Source of the DNA: Thermoleophilia bacterium
GTDB taxonomy: Bacteria > Actinomycetota > Thermoleophilia > Miltoncostaeales > Miltoncostaeaceae
Direction: 5' to 3'
NCBI GenBank assembly: GCA_020438485.1
Contig: JAGQUM010000027.1
Span: 1 to 32,589 of the forward strand
DNA: 32,589 nucleotides
Made by a program: the position numbers and the translations under genes
Shown here: piece after piece, positions 16,341 through 22,942 of the stretch
Layout: every line of letters begins with the position of its first letter
How positions within the stretch are numbered: the first letter of the stretch is position 1
The notes under the pieces: generated by a model
Told to the model about the DNA's origin: nothing
What the model saw: the letters and a program-made list of their open reading frames with translations, nothing else
Database searches by the model: none

Positions 16341-16407
16341 GATATTTGCAAGTTGCCGTGGCGGAGAATCTGGCGAATTGCTCGATGCCGATCGGAGACG
16401 CCCCGCC

Positions 16408-16413
16408 TAGGGT
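16408..16413 (+). promoter_or_regulatory. -10 box of CAP-domain gene (leaderless type)
   Basis: TAGGGT followed by 7 nt and the GTG at 16421. No ribosome binding site lies between. Confidence 0.45.
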
Positions 16414-16420
16414 GCCTCGC

Positions 16421-16861
16421 GTGCCCCCTCTTCCCCGCCCCGTAAAGGCGGCGGCCGCGGCCATCTGCGCTCTCGCGCCGGTGAGCACCGCCGCGGCCGC
16501 ATGTCCCAGTACCGAGACGGCCTCCGCCCGCGAGATCGGCTCGCAGATCAACGCCACCCGTGCCGCGTCCGGCGTCGCCCCGCTCAAGGGCTCGCTGATG
16601 CTCCTGCGCACCGCGCGCGCCCACAGCGCGGCGATGGCCTCGACCCGGACGCTCTGGCACGACCCGCTGCGGTGGGCCCGCCGCCGGAGCGCCGGCCAGA
16701 ACGTGGGCATCGGCGTCACCGCGCAGCAGGTGTTCACCGCGTTCATGGCCAGCCCCCCGCACCGGGCGGCGATCCTGAACCGCCGGTTCTCGCGCATGGG
16801 GGTCAGCGCGGCCCGCAGCTGCAGCGGCACGCTGCTGGTGACCGTCAACTTCATGTCGTAG
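16421..16861 (+). CDS. Secreted CAP-domain (SCP/YkwD-like) protein
   Basis: Small secreted protein of 146 aa. Residues 1-26 form a signal peptide (basic start, Ala-rich hydrophobic core, AAAAC cleavage region). The rest is a compact CAP domain: INATRAASGVAPLKGS at its start, AHSAAMA with the first conserved His, GQNVGIG in the middle and FMASPPHRAAILNRRFSRMGVS with the second conserved His near the end. Two Cys, one after the signal peptide and one in ARSCSG, could form a disulfide. Bacterial CAP proteins of this YkwD type are extracellular and poorly characterised. The GTG at 16421 is chosen because it begins the signal peptide and sits just after a -10 box. Downstream genes also act at the envelope. 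Confidence 0.82.
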   Translation: MPPLPRPVKAAAAAICALAPVSTAAAACPSTETASAREIGSQINATRAASGVAPLKGSLMLLRTARAHSAAMASTRTLWHDPLRWARRRSAGQNVGIGVTAQQVFTAFMASPPHRAAILNRRFSRMGVSAARSCSGTLLVTVNFMS

Positions 16862-16869
16862 TGACGCGG

Positions 16870-16875
16870 TAGGCT
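16870..16875 (+). promoter_or_regulatory. -10 box of adenosyltransferase gene (leaderless type)
   Basis: TAGGCT within GGTAGGCTGGGCG, followed by 6 nt and the GTG at 16882. It shares the TAGNNTGGGCG pattern with the nnr promoter at 12284. Confidence 0.5.
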
Positions 16876-16881
16876 GGGCGC

Positions 16882-17445
16882 GTGGTCCGGCTGACCCGCA
16901 TCTACACGCGTCTGGGCGACGACGGCCAGACGCACCTGGGCGACATGTCCCGCGTGGGCAAGGACAGCGCACGCGTCGCCGCGTTCGGAGACGTGGACGA
17001 GGCCAACAGCGCCATCGGCGTGGCCCGCGCCGTCGGCGTCGGCGACGCGGCAGACGCGTGGCTGGCCCGCGTACAGAACGACCTCTTCGACGTGGGCGCC
17101 GACCTGTGCACTCCCGACGACCCGTCCGCCGCCCGTTCGCCGCTGCGCGTCACGGCCGCCCAGGTCACCCGCCTGGAGGAGTGGTGCGACGAGGCCAACG
17201 CGGCGCTCGAGCCTCTCGCGAGCTTCGTGCTGCCGGGAGGGACACCCGCCGCCGCGGCGCTGCACCTGGCGCGCGCCGTGGTGCGGCGGGCCGAGCGCGG
17301 GGCCGTCGCGCTGGCCCGGACCGAGGCCGTCAACCCCGAGGCCCGGCGTTACCTCAACCGTCTGTCGGACCTGCTGTTCATCCTGGCGCGCGGCGCGAAC
17401 GGCGCGGGCGGCGACGTGCTGTGGGTGCCGGGCGGCGACCGGTGA
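16882..17445 (+). CDS. Cob(I)yrinic acid a,c-diamide adenosyltransferase (PduO type)
   Basis: ATP:cob(I)alamin adenosyltransferase of 187 aa that makes adenosylcobalamin. The N-terminal ATP-binding segment TRLGDDGQTHLGD is clear, VDEANSAIGVAR is the second conserved helix, and VNPEARRYLNRLSDLLFILAR near residue 150-170 carries the Arg and Asp residues typical of PduO/MMAB-type enzymes. Length matches the single-domain form. No cobalamin biosynthesis or B12-dependent enzyme gene is adjacent, so it probably serves salvage or repair for enzymes elsewhere. The deacetylase gene begins 7 nt after the stop and may share the transcript. Confidence 0.93.
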   Translation: MVRLTRIYTRLGDDGQTHLGDMSRVGKDSARVAAFGDVDEANSAIGVARAVGVGDAADAWLARVQNDLFDVGADLCTPDDPSAARSPLRVTAAQVTRLEEWCDEANAALEPLASFVLPGGTPAAAALHLARAVVRRAERGAVALARTEAVNPEARRYLNRLSDLLFILARGANGAGGDVLWVPGGDR

Positions 17446-17452
17446 GGCGCGC

Positions 17453-18394
17453 GTGCCGGGCGAGGCTCGGCCCGTGAACGTCGACAAGTACTTCGTGCGC
17501 CGGGCCGTGGCGCTGGCCGTGCTCGTGCTGGCTGTGGTCGGCGGGTTCAGCCTGGTGCGCGCCGCGTTCGGCGGCGGTGGCGACGGTGCCGCGCCGCCCA
17601 CCACGCCCACGACGGCGGCCGGCGAGCCCGCGCCGACGTCCACGAATGTCGGCACCGTCCCCGAGAACACCCGCACGGACAACGCGGCGCAGATCGCCCG
17701 CGCCAACGTCCCGGTGCTGTGCTACCACCAGGTCCGCCCGATGACGGCGTCCGACAGCGCCGCCTACGTCACCGAGCCGTCCACGCTCGACGACCAGCTG
17801 GACGCGATCAAGGCCGCCGGGTACACCACGATCACGCTCGACCAGTACGTCGCCCACATCAAGGACGGGGCGACGCTCCCCGCGAAGCCCATCCTGCTGA
17901 CGTTCGACGACGGCTCCGAGGGGCACTACACGCAGGTGCTCCCGCGGCTGCAGGAGCGCGGAATGGTGGCGACGTTCTTCATCATGACCGTCACGCTGGG
18001 CAACGAGAACTGGCTCACCCGCGAGCAGGTGCAGGAGCTCGACGCGGCCGGCATGTCCATCGGGTCACACACGTGGGACCACCACGACGTCACGGGGCTG
18101 CGCACGGCCAAGGACTTCCGCACGCAGCTCACCGAGCCGCGCCGGACCCTCGAGAAGCTGCTGGGGCACCCGGTGACGGTGCTGGCGTACCCGTTCGGGC
18201 TGTGGAACCGCTCGGTGGTGCCGCACGTGGAGCGGGCTGGGTACACGTCGGCGTTCCAGCTGGCCGAGAAGGCCGACCCGCGTTATCCCATGCACTCCAT
18301 CCGCCGCATCGCGGTGGGGGAGGAATCCGGCGCCGACTTGGTGCGCCAGATCCGCGGGGCGTTTCCCGCGACCACGCCCGCGCTGGCGAGCTGA
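17453..18394 (+). CDS. Polysaccharide deacetylase family protein (NodB/CE4 homology)
   Basis: Membrane-anchored or secreted deacetylase of 313 aa. One hydrophobic segment (about 18-38) follows a basic N-terminus; a Gly/Pro/Thr-rich linker leads to the NodB domain at about 85-300. The first metal motif is LLTFDDGSEG with Asp152 and Asp153, the second is SHTWDHHD with His206 and His210, and LAYPFG is the third conserved segment. This fits metal-dependent removal of N-acetyl groups from peptidoglycan or another envelope polysaccharide. The start is either the GTG at 17453 (GAGG 5 nt upstream) or the GTG at 17474 (GCGAGG 8 nt upstream), 7 residues shorter. It follows the adenosyltransferase closely and converges on the NlpC/P60-like gene after about 280 nt. 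Confidence 0.88.
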   Translation: MPGEARPVNVDKYFVRRAVALAVLVLAVVGGFSLVRAAFGGGGDGAAPPTTPTTAAGEPAPTSTNVGTVPENTRTDNAAQIARANVPVLCYHQVRPMTASDSAAYVTEPSTLDDQLDAIKAAGYTTITLDQYVAHIKDGATLPAKPILLTFDDGSEGHYTQVLPRLQERGMVATFFIMTVTLGNENWLTREQVQELDAAGMSIGSHTWDHHDVTGLRTAKDFRTQLTEPRRTLEKLLGHPVTVLAYPFGLWNRSVVPHVERAGYTSAFQLAEKADPRYPMHSIRRIAVGEESGADLVRQIRGAFPATTPALAS

Positions 18395-18616
18395 CGCGGG
18401 GGAGCGGCCGGCGCGTGGGCGCCCTCTCCGCGCACCGCGACGGCCGGGCGACGTACGGGGCGGCGCGGGCGGGGTCGTCGCCGATCCACCGCGCCCTCGG
18501 GGCGAGCGTGCCTGGTCGTACCACGCCGTCGCCGGGCTCCAACGGGCAACGCGACGCGACGTCGCGCGGGCGCCAGGACGCATCAGCCGCGTGAGGCGCC
18601 CAGGGAACGCCGCCGA

Positions 18617-18642
18617 CGGCCCGCGCGCCACGGCGGGCGGGC
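18617..18642 (-). terminator. Hairpin downstream of the NlpC/P60-like gene
   Basis: GGCCCGC and GCGGGCC arms (7 bp) flank a 12-nt loop, between the converging deacetylase and NlpC/P60-like genes and about 35 nt past the latter's stop. No T-run; termination is inferred from position. Confidence 0.4.
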
Positions 18643-18659
18643 CCTCGCGTTCGGCGTGA

Positions 18660-18679
18660 GGCCGCCGGAGAACCCTCTA
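18660..18679 (-). repeat. 3'-end motif, copy 1
   Basis: On the minus strand the gene's TAG stop continues as AGGGTTCTCCGGCGGCC. The same 20 nt occur with two differences at the stop of the acidic-protein gene (22998-23017). It may be a shared post-stop signal. Confidence 0.4.
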
Positions 18680-20065
18680 GATGCGGCGGGCGCCCAGGTA
18701 ACTGGCGGCCCACACGGGGTCGTACATGGACGCCAGGCGCACCACGTCGCCGGGGCCCGCGGCGTGGACGAACTGGCCGGCGCCCAGGTAGAGGCCCATG
18801 TGCACCACCCGGTTGCCCGTCGCGGCCGATCCGAACAGCACCACGTCGCCCGCCCGCAGCCGCATCGGGCCGATGGGCTCGCCCTTCAGTCCCAGGGCGT
18901 TGGGGCGCGTGGGTAGCGAGACCCCCTGGGCGGAGTACGCCGCGCGCACCAGGCCGACGTCGTCCAGGCCGCCCCGGGGCTGCTGCTGCGGGTGCGGCGT
19001 GCCCAGCAGCTCCAGCGCGTCGGCCGCGGCGGCCGGGCCCGCGTTGGTGACCGCCGGGGTGGCGAGACCCTGGGTGGGGGCGAACACGGGGGCGGCGACC
19101 GGGGTGGGGGCGGGGGCGCCCGTGAACACCGGTGCGTTGGGGTCGCCGCCCTGCGCGGCGTAGTACATCCCGACGTTCTGGGTCCAGTGGTTGTTCAGGT
19201 TCCCCGGGTCGTTCGCCGCGCCGATGGGGGCCCACACGCCCGCGATGGACCCGATCGTGGTGTGGCCGCGGCCCAGGTACAGGGGGCCCGCCAGGTTGGA
19301 CGCGGCGTAGCGGATCGCCTCGGGCCACGACGCAAAGTCCATGCCCGGGCCCAGGCCGAACGGGTTGTGGATGGTCTGGCTGGGGCCGTACGTGCCGAAC
19401 GAGGTCTCGGCGCCGGCGATGGCGACGATGAAGCGCGGGTCCAGGCCGACGCGCTGCGCCTCGGCCACGAACACGGCCCCCAGGCCCGTGAGCGGGCTGC
19501 CCTTCGCGGCCAGGAACGCGTCGATCGAGGCGGCGTCCGCGGCGCCGCCCGCCGCGGGCGCCGGCAGGGCGGGGACGGCGGGGGATGAGGTGACGGCCGG
19601 TGGCGCGGCGTCCGCGGCAGGCGGGGTGGCGGACACGTCGAGCGACCCGGGGGCCAAGACCACGCCCGTCGTGCTTGGGGCGGCGGCCTGCCGGTCGGCC
19701 TCGCCCGCGGCGTCCCGTTCGTCCTCGGCGATTCGCGCGGCGTCCTCGGCGGCGCGCCCGACGCCGTCCACGCGCAGGTCCTTCAGGGCCTCCAGGCGGG
19801 CCTCCTCCTCGCGCAGCGCATCTCCCTCCTCGGGCGTCGCGCCCACCATGCGCTGGCGCAGCTCGCTGAGCTGGGCCGAGACGGCGTCGACGCGGGCCTG
19901 CGCGGTGGCGATGCGCGCCTGGGCGCCCTCCACGCGCGGCGAGTCGGCCACCGCGGCGGCCTGAGCGTCGATCGACGGCACCGGCGTGGGAGCGGCGAAC
20001 GCGGGGGTCACGGCGGCCAGGGCACCGGCGGCCGCGATTCCGATGAGGAGTCGGCGGGGCATCAT
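18677..20065 (-). CDS. Secreted lysozyme-like protein with NlpC/P60-type domain lacking its catalytic Cys
   Basis: Exported protein of about 462 aa. Order: signal peptide (1-25), Glu/Arg/Ala-rich coiled coil (about 40-130), Ala/Pro linker, lysozyme- or glucosaminidase-like domain (about 178-310) with RFIVAIAGAETSFGTYG and a candidate catalytic Glu220, a second Pro/Ala linker, and a C-terminal NlpC/P60-type domain (about 350-462). That last domain keeps RLRAGDVVLF, HMGLYLG (His422) and FVHAAGPGDVV (His434), but the DCSG motif of the family reads DDVG, so Asp369 replaces the nucleophilic Cys; the codons read clearly as GAC GAC GTC GGC. It is therefore probably a non-catalytic binding domain. 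The start is uncertain (ATG 20065 or 20062, or an upstream GTG at 20095). The intact paralogue lies 103 nt upstream on the same strand. Confidence 0.85.
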   Translation of the reverse strand: MMPRRLLIGIAAAGALAAVTPAFAAPTPVPSIDAQAAAVADSPRVEGAQARIATAQARVDAVSAQLSELRQRMVGATPEEGDALREEEARLEALKDLRVDGVGRAAEDAARIAEDERDAAGEADRQAAAPSTTGVVLAPGSLDVSATPPAADAAPPAVTSSPAVPALPAPAAGGAADAASIDAFLAAKGSPLTGLGAVFVAEAQRVGLDPRFIVAIAGAETSFGTYGPSQTIHNPFGLGPGMDFASWPEAIRYAASNLAGPLYLGRGHTTIGSIAGVWAPIGAANDPGNLNNHWTQNVGMYYAAQGGDPNAPVFTGAPAPTPVAAPVFAPTQGLATPAVTNAGPAAAADALELLGTPHPQQQPRGGLDDVGLVRAAYSAQGVSLPTRPNALGLKGEPIGPMRLRAGDVVLFGSAATGNRVVHMGLYLGAGQFVHAAGPGDVVRLASMYDPVWAASYLGARRI

Positions 20066-20168
20066 GGGGGCACCCATTGGATCGCCCGCGGGCACGCAAA
20101 GCTTGAGCGCCGCGCGTCCCGGCGCGCCGCCACGGCGGTGCGGCCGGGCCGGTGGGCCGCCGGCGGGG

Positions 20169-21326
20169 CTAGTAGGGCCGCACCGCGCCGGCGTACGAGC
20201 CCGCGCGGTCGGACAGCGGCGTGATCTTCACCACGTCGCCGGTGTGCGGTGCGTGGATGAACTGGCCGTTGCCGATGTAGATGCCCATGTGGTGCAGGTC
20301 GCTGTAGAAGAACACCAGGTCGCCGGGCTGCAGGTCGCCCGACGACACCTTGGGGAACTGCCCCCAGATGGCGCCCGTGTAGTGGGGCACGCTGATGCCC
20401 AGCTGCCCGTACACGTACGACGCGAGGCCGGAGCAGTCGAACCCGGACGGCGACGCGCCCCCCCACACGTACGGCACGCCCAGGTACCGCATCGCGATGG
20501 ACACGGCCTGCTGGCCGGTGCTGCCCGCGGGGCCCGCGGCCGGTGCGGACGCCGGGGCGGACGGAGCTGACGGGGCAGCCTGCGACGCGGGGCTCGACGG
20601 CGCCGACGGGGCCGACGGGGCGGCGGACCTCACGGCGGCCTCGCGCGCCGCGGCGGCGCGCTGGGCGGCCAGCGCGGCCTGCTTCTGGCGCTCGGCCTCG
20701 GCGCGCTTGCGGGCCTCCTCGGCCGCGATCATGCGGCGCAGCTCGCCGCGGGCGCCCTCGACGACCCGGCGGCGCTCGGCCAGCAGCGCCTCCACCTGGC
20801 GCTTGTGCTCGGCGGCCTGGGCCACCTTGACCTTCTGGTCGGCGCGGTCCCGGTTCAGCTGCCGGCGCGCCACGTGCAGCTGGTCCAGGTCGCTGCGGAT
20901 GCCGCGCACGATCGACCCGTCGCGCTCACCCACGCGCTCCATCAGGTCCTGGCCCTCCACGGCGGCCACGACGCTGCCGCTGGACGCCAGCACCTCCACG
21001 ATGGACGGCTCGGGGTTGGCGTACATCGAGCGCACGCGCTGGGCCAGCACGCCCTGCGACCTCTTGAGGCGCTTCGTGGTCTCCGTGGTGCGCCGCGTGT
21101 TGGTGACGATGCGCCCCTCGATCTGCTGCTGCTCCCACCGGGCGCCGTTGTACTGCTCGGCCGCCTGCGCCGCCCTGTCGTCGATGGCGGCGAGCTGGGC
21201 CTCGAGACGGGCGACCTCCGCGCGCTTCGAGCCGATGCCCGCAGGCTGCGCCGTGGTCATCGACACCGGGACCGCGACGGCCAGAGACCCGGCGACCGCG
21301 GCGGCGGCGATTACGCGGCGGGCCAT
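20169..21326 (-). CDS. Secreted NlpC/P60 cell-wall endopeptidase with coiled coil
   Basis: Peptidoglycan hydrolase of 385 aa of the RipA/CwlO-like architecture. Residues 1-26 are a signal peptide; a long coiled coil follows (about 32-225), containing VRSMYANPEPSIVEVL typical of this group; then a Ser/Ala/Pro-rich linker (about 225-270) and the NlpC/P60 domain (about 270-385). The catalytic set is complete: GFDCSGL with Cys298, HMGIYIG with His346 and FIHAPH with His358. It should cleave stem peptides, probably D-Glu to diaminopimelate bonds. The ATG at 21326 begins the signal peptide; no ribosome binding site is obvious. The gene upstream is a divergently oriented M23 endopeptidase. Confidence 0.93.
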   Translation of the reverse strand: MARRVIAAAAVAGSLAVAVPVSMTTAQPAGIGSKRAEVARLEAQLAAIDDRAAQAAEQYNGARWEQQQIEGRIVTNTRRTTETTKRLKRSQGVLAQRVRSMYANPEPSIVEVLASSGSVVAAVEGQDLMERVGERDGSIVRGIRSDLDQLHVARRQLNRDRADQKVKVAQAAEHKRQVEALLAERRRVVEGARGELRRMIAAEEARKRAEAERQKQAALAAQRAAAAREAAVRSAAPSAPSAPSSPASQAAPSAPSAPASAPAAGPAGSTGQQAVSIAMRYLGVPYVWGGASPSGFDCSGLASYVYGQLGISVPHYTGAIWGQFPKVSSGDLQPGDLVFFYSDLHHMGIYIGNGQFIHAPHTGDVVKITPLSDRAGSYAGAVRPY

Positions 21327-21416
21327 GAGGGTGCGGTCGGTTCGGATCGGGAGGACTCCTTCGTGCGCTCGGGGCGGGGAGGCGCCAGCGTCCAATGATC
21401 GCAATGTGCGGACGTT

Positions 21417-21431
21417 GGTCAAATCCGGCGG
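21417..21431 (-). promoter_or_regulatory. 15-nt motif upstream of the NlpC/P60 gene
   Basis: Minus-strand CCGCCGGATTTGACC, ending 91 nt before the start at 21326. An identical copy ends 88 nt before the acidic-protein gene (23879-23893). TTGACC could be a -35 hexamer, but a good -10 is not seen at 17 nt. Confidence 0.45.
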
Positions 21432-21478
21432 GTCGAGGATGGTGTCGGCGGCGTTTGTGGCAGCCTTGATCCCTGTGC

Positions 21479-21497
21479 GCCGACCGCTCCGGTCGGC
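21479..21497. repeat. Inverted repeat between divergent hydrolase genes
   Basis: GCCGACCG (21479-21486) and CGGTCGGC (21490-21497) flank CTC: an 8-bp perfect repeat ending 11 nt before the M23 start and directly before a CAGAAT -10 candidate (21497-21502). The position suits an operator for the M23 gene. Confidence 0.5.
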
Positions 21498-21508
21498 AGA
21501 ATGCGGGC

Positions 21509-22942
21509 GTGAGGTTTCGTCGATCGTACGTCGCCGTCGTGGCCGGGGTGATGGCGGTTTCGCCTTTGGGCGTGAACGCCGCGTTGCGCGCCGCCGCGGG
21601 CCCGCCGCCCGCCGGGGGCGCCGCGAACGTGCGTGCCTACGGCGTTCTCAGCCAGTCCGGCGGCTCGGCGACGGCCGTTGCAAACGTTGCAGGTTCCCCG
21701 CACCGCAGCGCGCGTGCGCGGGACGTGACGGACGCCCGTGGCACTGTCGCGTCCGTGTCGGTGGTGGTCGACGCCCGCCGCTCGCCGACCGGCAGCGACG
21801 TCTCCGGGCGGGTCGATGCGACGGGCGTCACGCTGTTCGGCGGCCGCGTGACCATCGCGTCGCTGCGGGTGGGCGCCCGCGGCCGGGCCGACGCTGCCGC
21901 GGCCGAGGGGGCCGTCGACGGCGTGCAGGTGGGACAGGTGGTGGTCGACGGGAACCCCGTCGCGGTGGCCCCCGGGGCGCCGGTGGACGTGCCCGGTGCC
22001 GGGTCGTTCGTCGTGGGCCAGTCCTCGCGCGAGGGCGGCGTGGTGAGCGTCAACGCGCTGACGGTGAACGCCGCCGACTCCCCCGGCCTCGCCCCGCTGG
22101 TGATCGGCAACATCACGCTCACCACGGCCCCGGGGGCCGACGCGGTGAGCCCGCCCGACCCGGCGCCCGCGCCCGCCCGGACGAACGCCCCGGCGCCCGC
22201 ACGGACCCCCGCGGCACCCGCTCCCGCGTCGGCCGAGCCGGGCCGCCCCGACGGGGCCGACGTCATCCCCCCCGCCGCCGCCCCGTCCGCACCCGTGGCG
22301 CCCCGCGTGCTGCCCACGCCGCACCTGCTCCCCGGCACGCCGCCCCCGTCTCGCGCACCCGTCACCGGCGGCGTGCGCGGCAACGTGTTCCCCGTGCAGG
22401 GCGCGTACACGTACTCGTCCGACTACGGGGCTCCGCGGGCCGGCACCGGCTGGCACCACGGCAACGACGTGTTCGCGCCGGTCAGCACTCCCGTCGTGGC
22501 CGTGGCCGACGGCGTGCTGTCGAAGGTCGGGTGGAACAACCTCGGCGGTAACCGCCTATGGCTGACCGACGCGGGCGGCACGTCGTACTACTACGCGCAC
22601 CTGTCCGCGTACTCCACGTCGGCCGCCGACGGTGCCATCGTCCGCGCCGGCGACGTGATCGGCTACGTGGGCAACACGGGCCAGGCGTCCACCACGCCGC
22701 CCCACCTGCACTTCGAGATCCACCCGGGCGGCGTCCCGGCGCCCAGCATCAACCCGTACCCGTTTCTGCAGGCGTGGGAGGCATCCGTGCCACGGACCTC
22801 GTTCGGTATCGCCCAGAGCGAGCGGGGCGACGCGCCCGCCCCGGTCGCCGACGCCGGCGCGGGGGCCGTCATCATCGGCGTCGTGGTCGACCGCCCCACG
22901 GCGCCTCGCGTGGGAGACGGGTCGGCCCGCTCCGCGCGCTGA
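21509..22942 (+). CDS. Secreted M23 (LytM-type) metallopeptidase
   Basis: Exported protein of 477 aa. Residues 1-26 are a signal peptide. Residues about 40-205 form a beta-rich, Val/Gly/Ala-rich domain that resembles choice-of-anchor-type surface domains; this is a weak assignment. A Pro/Ala-rich spacer (about 210-285) leads to the LytM domain (about 290-415), which holds the zinc ligands: WHHGND (His316, Asp320), YAHLS (His364) and HLHFEIH (His399 and His401). It should cleave peptidoglycan cross-bridges or stem peptides. The GTG at 21509 follows a CAGAAT -10-like sequence by 6 nt, matching the leaderless pattern here. It is divergent from the NlpC/P60 gene and converges on the acidic-protein gene. 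Confidence 0.9.
   Translation: MRFRRSYVAVVAGVMAVSPLGVNAALRAAAGPPPAGGAANVRAYGVLSQSGGSATAVANVAGSPHRSARARDVTDARGTVASVSVVVDARRSPTGSDVSGRVDATGVTLFGGRVTIASLRVGARGRADAAAAEGAVDGVQVGQVVVDGNPVAVAPGAPVDVPGAGSFVVGQSSREGGVVSVNALTVNAADSPGLAPLVIGNITLTTAPGADAVSPPDPAPAPARTNAPAPARTPAAPAPASAEPGRPDGADVIPPAAAPSAPVAPRVLPTPHLLPGTPPPSRAPVTGGVRGNVFPVQGAYTYSSDYGAPRAGTGWHHGNDVFAPVSTPVVAVADGVLSKVGWNNLGGNRLWLTDAGGTSYYYAHLSAYSTSAADGAIVRAGDVIGYVGNTGQASTTPPHLHFEIHPGGVPAPSINPYPFLQAWEASVPRTSFGIAQSERGDAPAPVADAGAGAVIIGVVVDRPTAPRVGDGSARSAR

Follow-up and report, generated by a model that had tools for sequence, protein, structure and literature searches.

A degenerate NlpC/P60 domain fused to a predicted GH73-type glucosaminidase in the Miltoncostaeaceae

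RipC of Mycobacterium tuberculosis, a protein with a coiled coil and an NlpC/P60 domain, is an active enzyme controlled by FtsEX. Both a dead NlpC/P60 domain and the combination of a GH73 domain with an NlpC/P60 domain are already known, each in a separate protein. RipD of M. tuberculosis (Rv1566c) is secreted and has the NlpC/P60 fold without the catalytic Cys, and its dead domain binds peptidoglycan (PMC12067865). It has no glycan-hydrolase domain, its triad reads Ala-Ser-Glu and it carries a C-terminal pentapeptide repeat. Ecd09610 of Clostridioides difficile, a putative prophage endolysin, has a GH73 glucosaminidase domain and, C-terminal to it, an NlpC/P60 domain; both are lytic, and the catalytic domains alone suffice for binding to cells (PMC9405191). 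CwlT and CdCwlT33800 also unite a glycan hydrolase and an NlpC/P60 domain in one secreted protein. In CdCwlT33800, the lysozyme-like domain (PF13702) was inactive in assays while the peptidase domain was active, and isolated endopeptidase domains bind cells (PMC12542765).

The window analysed here (the whole stretch of 32,589 nucleotides from contig JAGQUM010000027.1 of a Thermoleophilia bacterium) encodes a secreted two-domain protein of 462 aa, P0001 (18677..20065, minus strand; ATG at 20065, stop at 18677), which has orthologues in the same family. According to the translation, a signal peptide, a variable coiled-coil-like region, a GH73-type domain and a C-terminal NlpC/P60 domain follow each other in this order; the protein ends with the last of these and has no C-terminal pentapeptide repeats. 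The putative signal peptide (residues ~1-25, MMPRRLLIGIAAAGALAAVTPAFA-A; 19991..20065, minus strand) has an RR pair, a hydrophobic stretch and an AFA-A site. Like the signal peptide, the Ala/Glu/Arg-rich, coiled-coil-like region (residues ~43-125; 19691..19939, minus strand) was read from the sequence by eye; it is short and varies among orthologues.

Fold, lost nucleophile, purifying selection and a conserved Glu together give good support for the view that P0001 is a glycan hydrolase carrying an NlpC/P60 domain without catalytic activity. In contrast to RipD, P0001 keeps both His residues and has its dead domain fused to a GH73-like domain. In contrast to Ecd09610, its NlpC/P60 domain is dead and its gene lies among housekeeping genes. 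CdCwlT33800, with an inactive hydrolase and an active peptidase, shows the reverse of the state predicted for P0001. An earlier note on this DNA had called the architecture unusual; the combination itself was confirmed, but is less unusual in view of Ecd09610 (PMC9405191) and RipD (PMC12067865). A narrow literature search of a limited set of papers found no glucosaminidase described with an NlpC/P60 domain that is dead in some orthologues of a family and intact in others.

The degenerate NlpC/P60 domain comprises residues ~340-462 (18680..19048, minus strand). Where active members have FDCSG, residues 367-371 of P0001 read LDDVG (CTG GAC GAC GTC GGC), and Asp369 (codon GAC, 18959..18961, minus strand) replaces the nucleophilic Cys. 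The codons thus bear out the reading of DDVG in place of DCSG in the earlier note, and the loss is wider than it stated: the Ser following the Cys of DCSG is missing as well, and the YVWGG motif is replaced by PHPQQQPRGG. The orthologue alignment placed His422 (18800..18802, minus strand) at the position of the catalytic His and His434 (18764..18766, minus strand) at that of the third, polar catalytic residue; both are retained. The Pfam profile PF00877 matched residues 366-461 with 54.7 bits (cut-off: 23; E-value 1e-14). An AlphaFold2 model of the domain reached a pLDDT of 91.7 with an alignment of 24 sequences; this alignment includes ten active neighbours, so that the model leans on active members, whereas the Pfam match is independent of them. 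The model was superposed on the crystal structure of an NlpC/P60 enzyme (7cfl) with a Z score of 19.6 (119 residues, 1.9 Å) and on RipD (4jxb) with a Z score of 15.9. By profile and model, the C-terminal domain is predicted to have the papain-like NlpC/P60 fold, in agreement with the scaffold with two His residues proposed earlier. The profile E-value, the match to 7cfl and the absence of Cys in 12 of 14 orthologues show that the degenerate domain is not a chance resemblance. The NCBIfam model of RipD scored 32.2 bits on P0001 (cut-off: 215), and that of RipC matched P0001 via the NlpC/P60 part only (46.6 bits). Three NlpC/P60 domains are encoded in this genome, two of them intact (in the neighbour P0002 and on contig 59) and that of P0001 dead. 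Counts of NlpC/P60 domains hence overstate the number of endopeptidases per genome, with one in three dead here.

The hydrolase domain of P0001 comprises residues ~177-316 (19118..19537, minus strand). The PF01832 (Glucosaminidase) profile gave 19.7 bits, which is below its curated cut-off of 30.2, and we therefore use 'GH73-like' as the safe term. A profile (A3) matched 8yxk, the glucosaminidase domain of Ecd09610, with an E-value of 1.3e-18. The AlphaFold2 model (pLDDT 90.5) was superposed on 8yxk, the closest solved relative, with a Z score of 18.8 (140 residues, 2.2 Å) and on LytB with a Z score of 15.2. E220 (19406..19408, minus strand), present in all 14 two-domain orthologues, aligned with the catalytic E585 of LytB, the residue mutated in entry 7pj4. 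These comparisons point to a GH73-type fold with its catalytic Glu, and we predict glucosaminidase activity with E220 as the putative catalytic residue. Of the earlier description of this domain as lysozyme- or glucosaminidase-like, the glucosaminidase half fits better than the lysozyme half. Pfam matches to P0001 up to an E-value of 1 did not include the PF13702 lysozyme-like domain, and a CwlT-type lysozyme was rejected, as GH73 fits better by both profile and structure match to 8yxk. Two more GH73-like paralogues occur in the same genome (L155, contig 78:46609-47055; L156, contig 87:82089-82514); they are fused to other sequence and have no NlpC/P60 domain.

We searched for orthologues in 61 genomes of relatives, 399 genomes of the class and GTDB contigs. 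Including P0001, 14 two-domain orthologues were obtained, all from Miltoncostaeaceae (Thermoleophilia). The nucleophile column holds Asp in seven of them, Ala in four, Pro in one and Cys in two. With Cys missing from 12 of 14 orthologues, a sequencing error or an isolated mutation is ruled out as the source of the loss. The conserved trait is the missing nucleophile and not the Asp itself: with Asp, Ala or Pro at this column, nothing points to a special role of Asp369. The two orthologues with Cys (L012 and L015) keep FDCSG, YVWGG and the remaining motif. Since intact and dead orthologues coexist in one family, the conversion of a peptidase into a module can be tested directly by comparing the two states.

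These alignments also bear on the idea that the NlpC/P60 domain of P0001 is still an enzyme, with a changed mechanism in which Asp369 would act instead of Cys. In its favour, Cys is most often replaced by Asp (7 of 12), and the two His residues are kept. Against it, five orthologues have Ala or Pro at this position, and the loss extends to YVWGG and to the Ser of DCSG. In addition, the nucleophile of papain-like enzymes is Cys, or Ser in some families (PMC10318531), which also counts against the idea. We regard a changed mechanism as extremely improbable.

Among the 12 dead orthologues, His422 is kept in 11 and His434 in ten (Asn in L007, Gln in L014). In four dead members, the Asp preceding the lost Cys is Thr, Asn or Ser; given these substitutions and the loss of YVWGG, the substrate groove is partly changed. 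The most degenerate orthologue (L018:381-755) has Pro at the nucleophile position, Arg at that of the catalytic His and a very long branch. One orthologue (L017:1399-2292, genome G004) stops right after the hydrolase domain, and no NlpC/P60 sequence was found downstream in that frame. No two-domain orthologue was found in other nearly complete genomes of Miltoncostaeaceae among the 399 class genomes searched. The loss of His422 in L018, the missing domain in G004 and the genomes without an orthologue indicate that the NlpC/P60 domain is dispensable in some lineages.

Some observations favour a decaying relic, an inactive domain on its way out with no function of its own: the nucleophile position is occupied by differing residues, L018 is very diverged and lacks His422, and G004 has lost the whole domain. 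However, the open reading frame and the domain profile were maintained in 12 dead orthologues from several genera, and purifying selection acts on the dead domain. For six closely related pairs of dead domains, dN/dS ranged from 0.08 to 0.47 and was thus below 1 throughout (Fisher p 3e-4 to 4e-23); it was ~0.2 or lower in five pairs and 0.47 in the sixth, the pairs being few and not all independent. At high GC content, codon bias should inflate these ratios rather than lower them. For the two closest pairs, constraint was somewhat weaker on the dead domain (0.13 and 0.20) than on the hydrolase domain (0.04 and 0.18). We consider a decaying relic unlikely.

The ancestral NlpC/P60 domain was likely active. 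In a tree of the NlpC/P60 domains rooted with the RipC-like neighbours, L015 and L012 branched first and all dead sequences formed one clade (support 99/99), although this grouping may have been pulled by losses of active-site residues common to the dead sequences. A species tree from three genes (SufB, GlmS and GuaA) placed the genomes with Cys apart from the dead ones with weak support (70/1). In a tree of the hydrolase domain only, the Cys pair fell without resolution among the dead sequences, and a single dead clade was not rejected (p 0.13). One loss fits all three trees; several losses may also have occurred.

We favour, with a probability of roughly 0.6, the reading that P0001 is a secreted glucosaminidase held on peptidoglycan by a former peptidase domain that would now be a binding module. 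The Cys has been lost, yet the fold was kept and the domain was retained across several genera, for which reason the dead domain is probably a grip on the cell wall. Wall binding is suggested by analogy with RipD and with the isolated domains of CdCwlT33800 and Ecd09610. The GH73-like domain would cut glycan strands with E220 as catalytic acid. In the dead domain, the old active-site groove would still bind stem peptides without cutting them, and this binding may raise the affinity of P0001 for the wall or direct it to certain wall sites. Peptide cutting would be left to the intact RipC-like endopeptidase P0002. The retention of His422 and His434 in most dead members despite the missing nucleophile and the presence of an intact endopeptidase gene upstream at most loci were counted in favour of a binding module; the changed groove residues, L018 without His422, G004 without the domain and the genomes without an orthologue were counted against it.

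The intact paralogue reported next door was found as described. P0002 (20169..21422, minus strand; true start probably near 21326) is the upstream neighbour of P0001 at a gap of about 100 bases. By translation it resembles RipC, with a coiled coil and an NlpC/P60 domain with intact motifs (YVWGG...FDCSG); the NlpC/P60 gene on contig 59 has these motifs too. The NCBIfam RipC model gave 126 bits, under its cut-off of 425. At ten family loci (nine with a two-domain orthologue, the tenth with the truncated L017), the gene immediately upstream on the same strand is RipC-like and has an intact Cys; at three further loci (L064, L071 and L074), such a gene lies 1-2 kb upstream. As the genome also encodes an FtsX with an extracellular domain, control of the RipC-like enzyme by FtsEX is possible.

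The degenerate LytM proteins EnvC and NlpD are activators that switch amidases. By analogy, the dead domain of P0001, together with the coiled coil, might bind the endopeptidase P0002 or FtsX and switch cutting on or off. As a pseudoenzyme regulator of P0002 it would couple glucosaminidase and endopeptidase and be an NlpC/P60 counterpart of EnvC and NlpD. The recurrence of the same-strand gene pair in related genomes, the FtsX with its extracellular domain and the coiled-coil-like regions of both P0001 and P0002 are consistent with such a role. However, the pair also exists in L012 and L015, where the domain is intact, so that gene pairing does not track inactivation, and the hydrolase domain joined to the dead domain has a catalytic Glu of its own. 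We consider a switch acting on P0002 or FtsX unlikely, and the same applies to the coupling of the two activities. A decoy that binds proteinaceous endopeptidase inhibitors and thereby shields the active neighbour would also draw on the retained fold, and IseA in complex with LytE (entry 8i2e) is an example of an inhibitor bound to an NlpC/P60 domain; we judge a decoy to be very unlikely.

A phage origin of P0001 was rejected, as its gene is surrounded by housekeeping genes and none of the phage records reached 80% coverage of the protein. The best match labelled as phage was an unverified Listeria phage contig encoding a GH73-like and NlpC/P60 protein with 25% identity and an intact IDCSA motif. 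This protein (L157:155-1198) is membrane-anchored and retains the Cys, and the contig may be bacterial DNA.

Several wall-related genes lie close together at 16346-22942 of the window, their names being taken from translations only. Besides P0001 and P0002, they encode a CAP-like secreted protein (16346-16861), a polysaccharide-deacetylase-like protein (17453-18394) and a divergent M23-like peptidase (21509-22942), all three on the plus strand.
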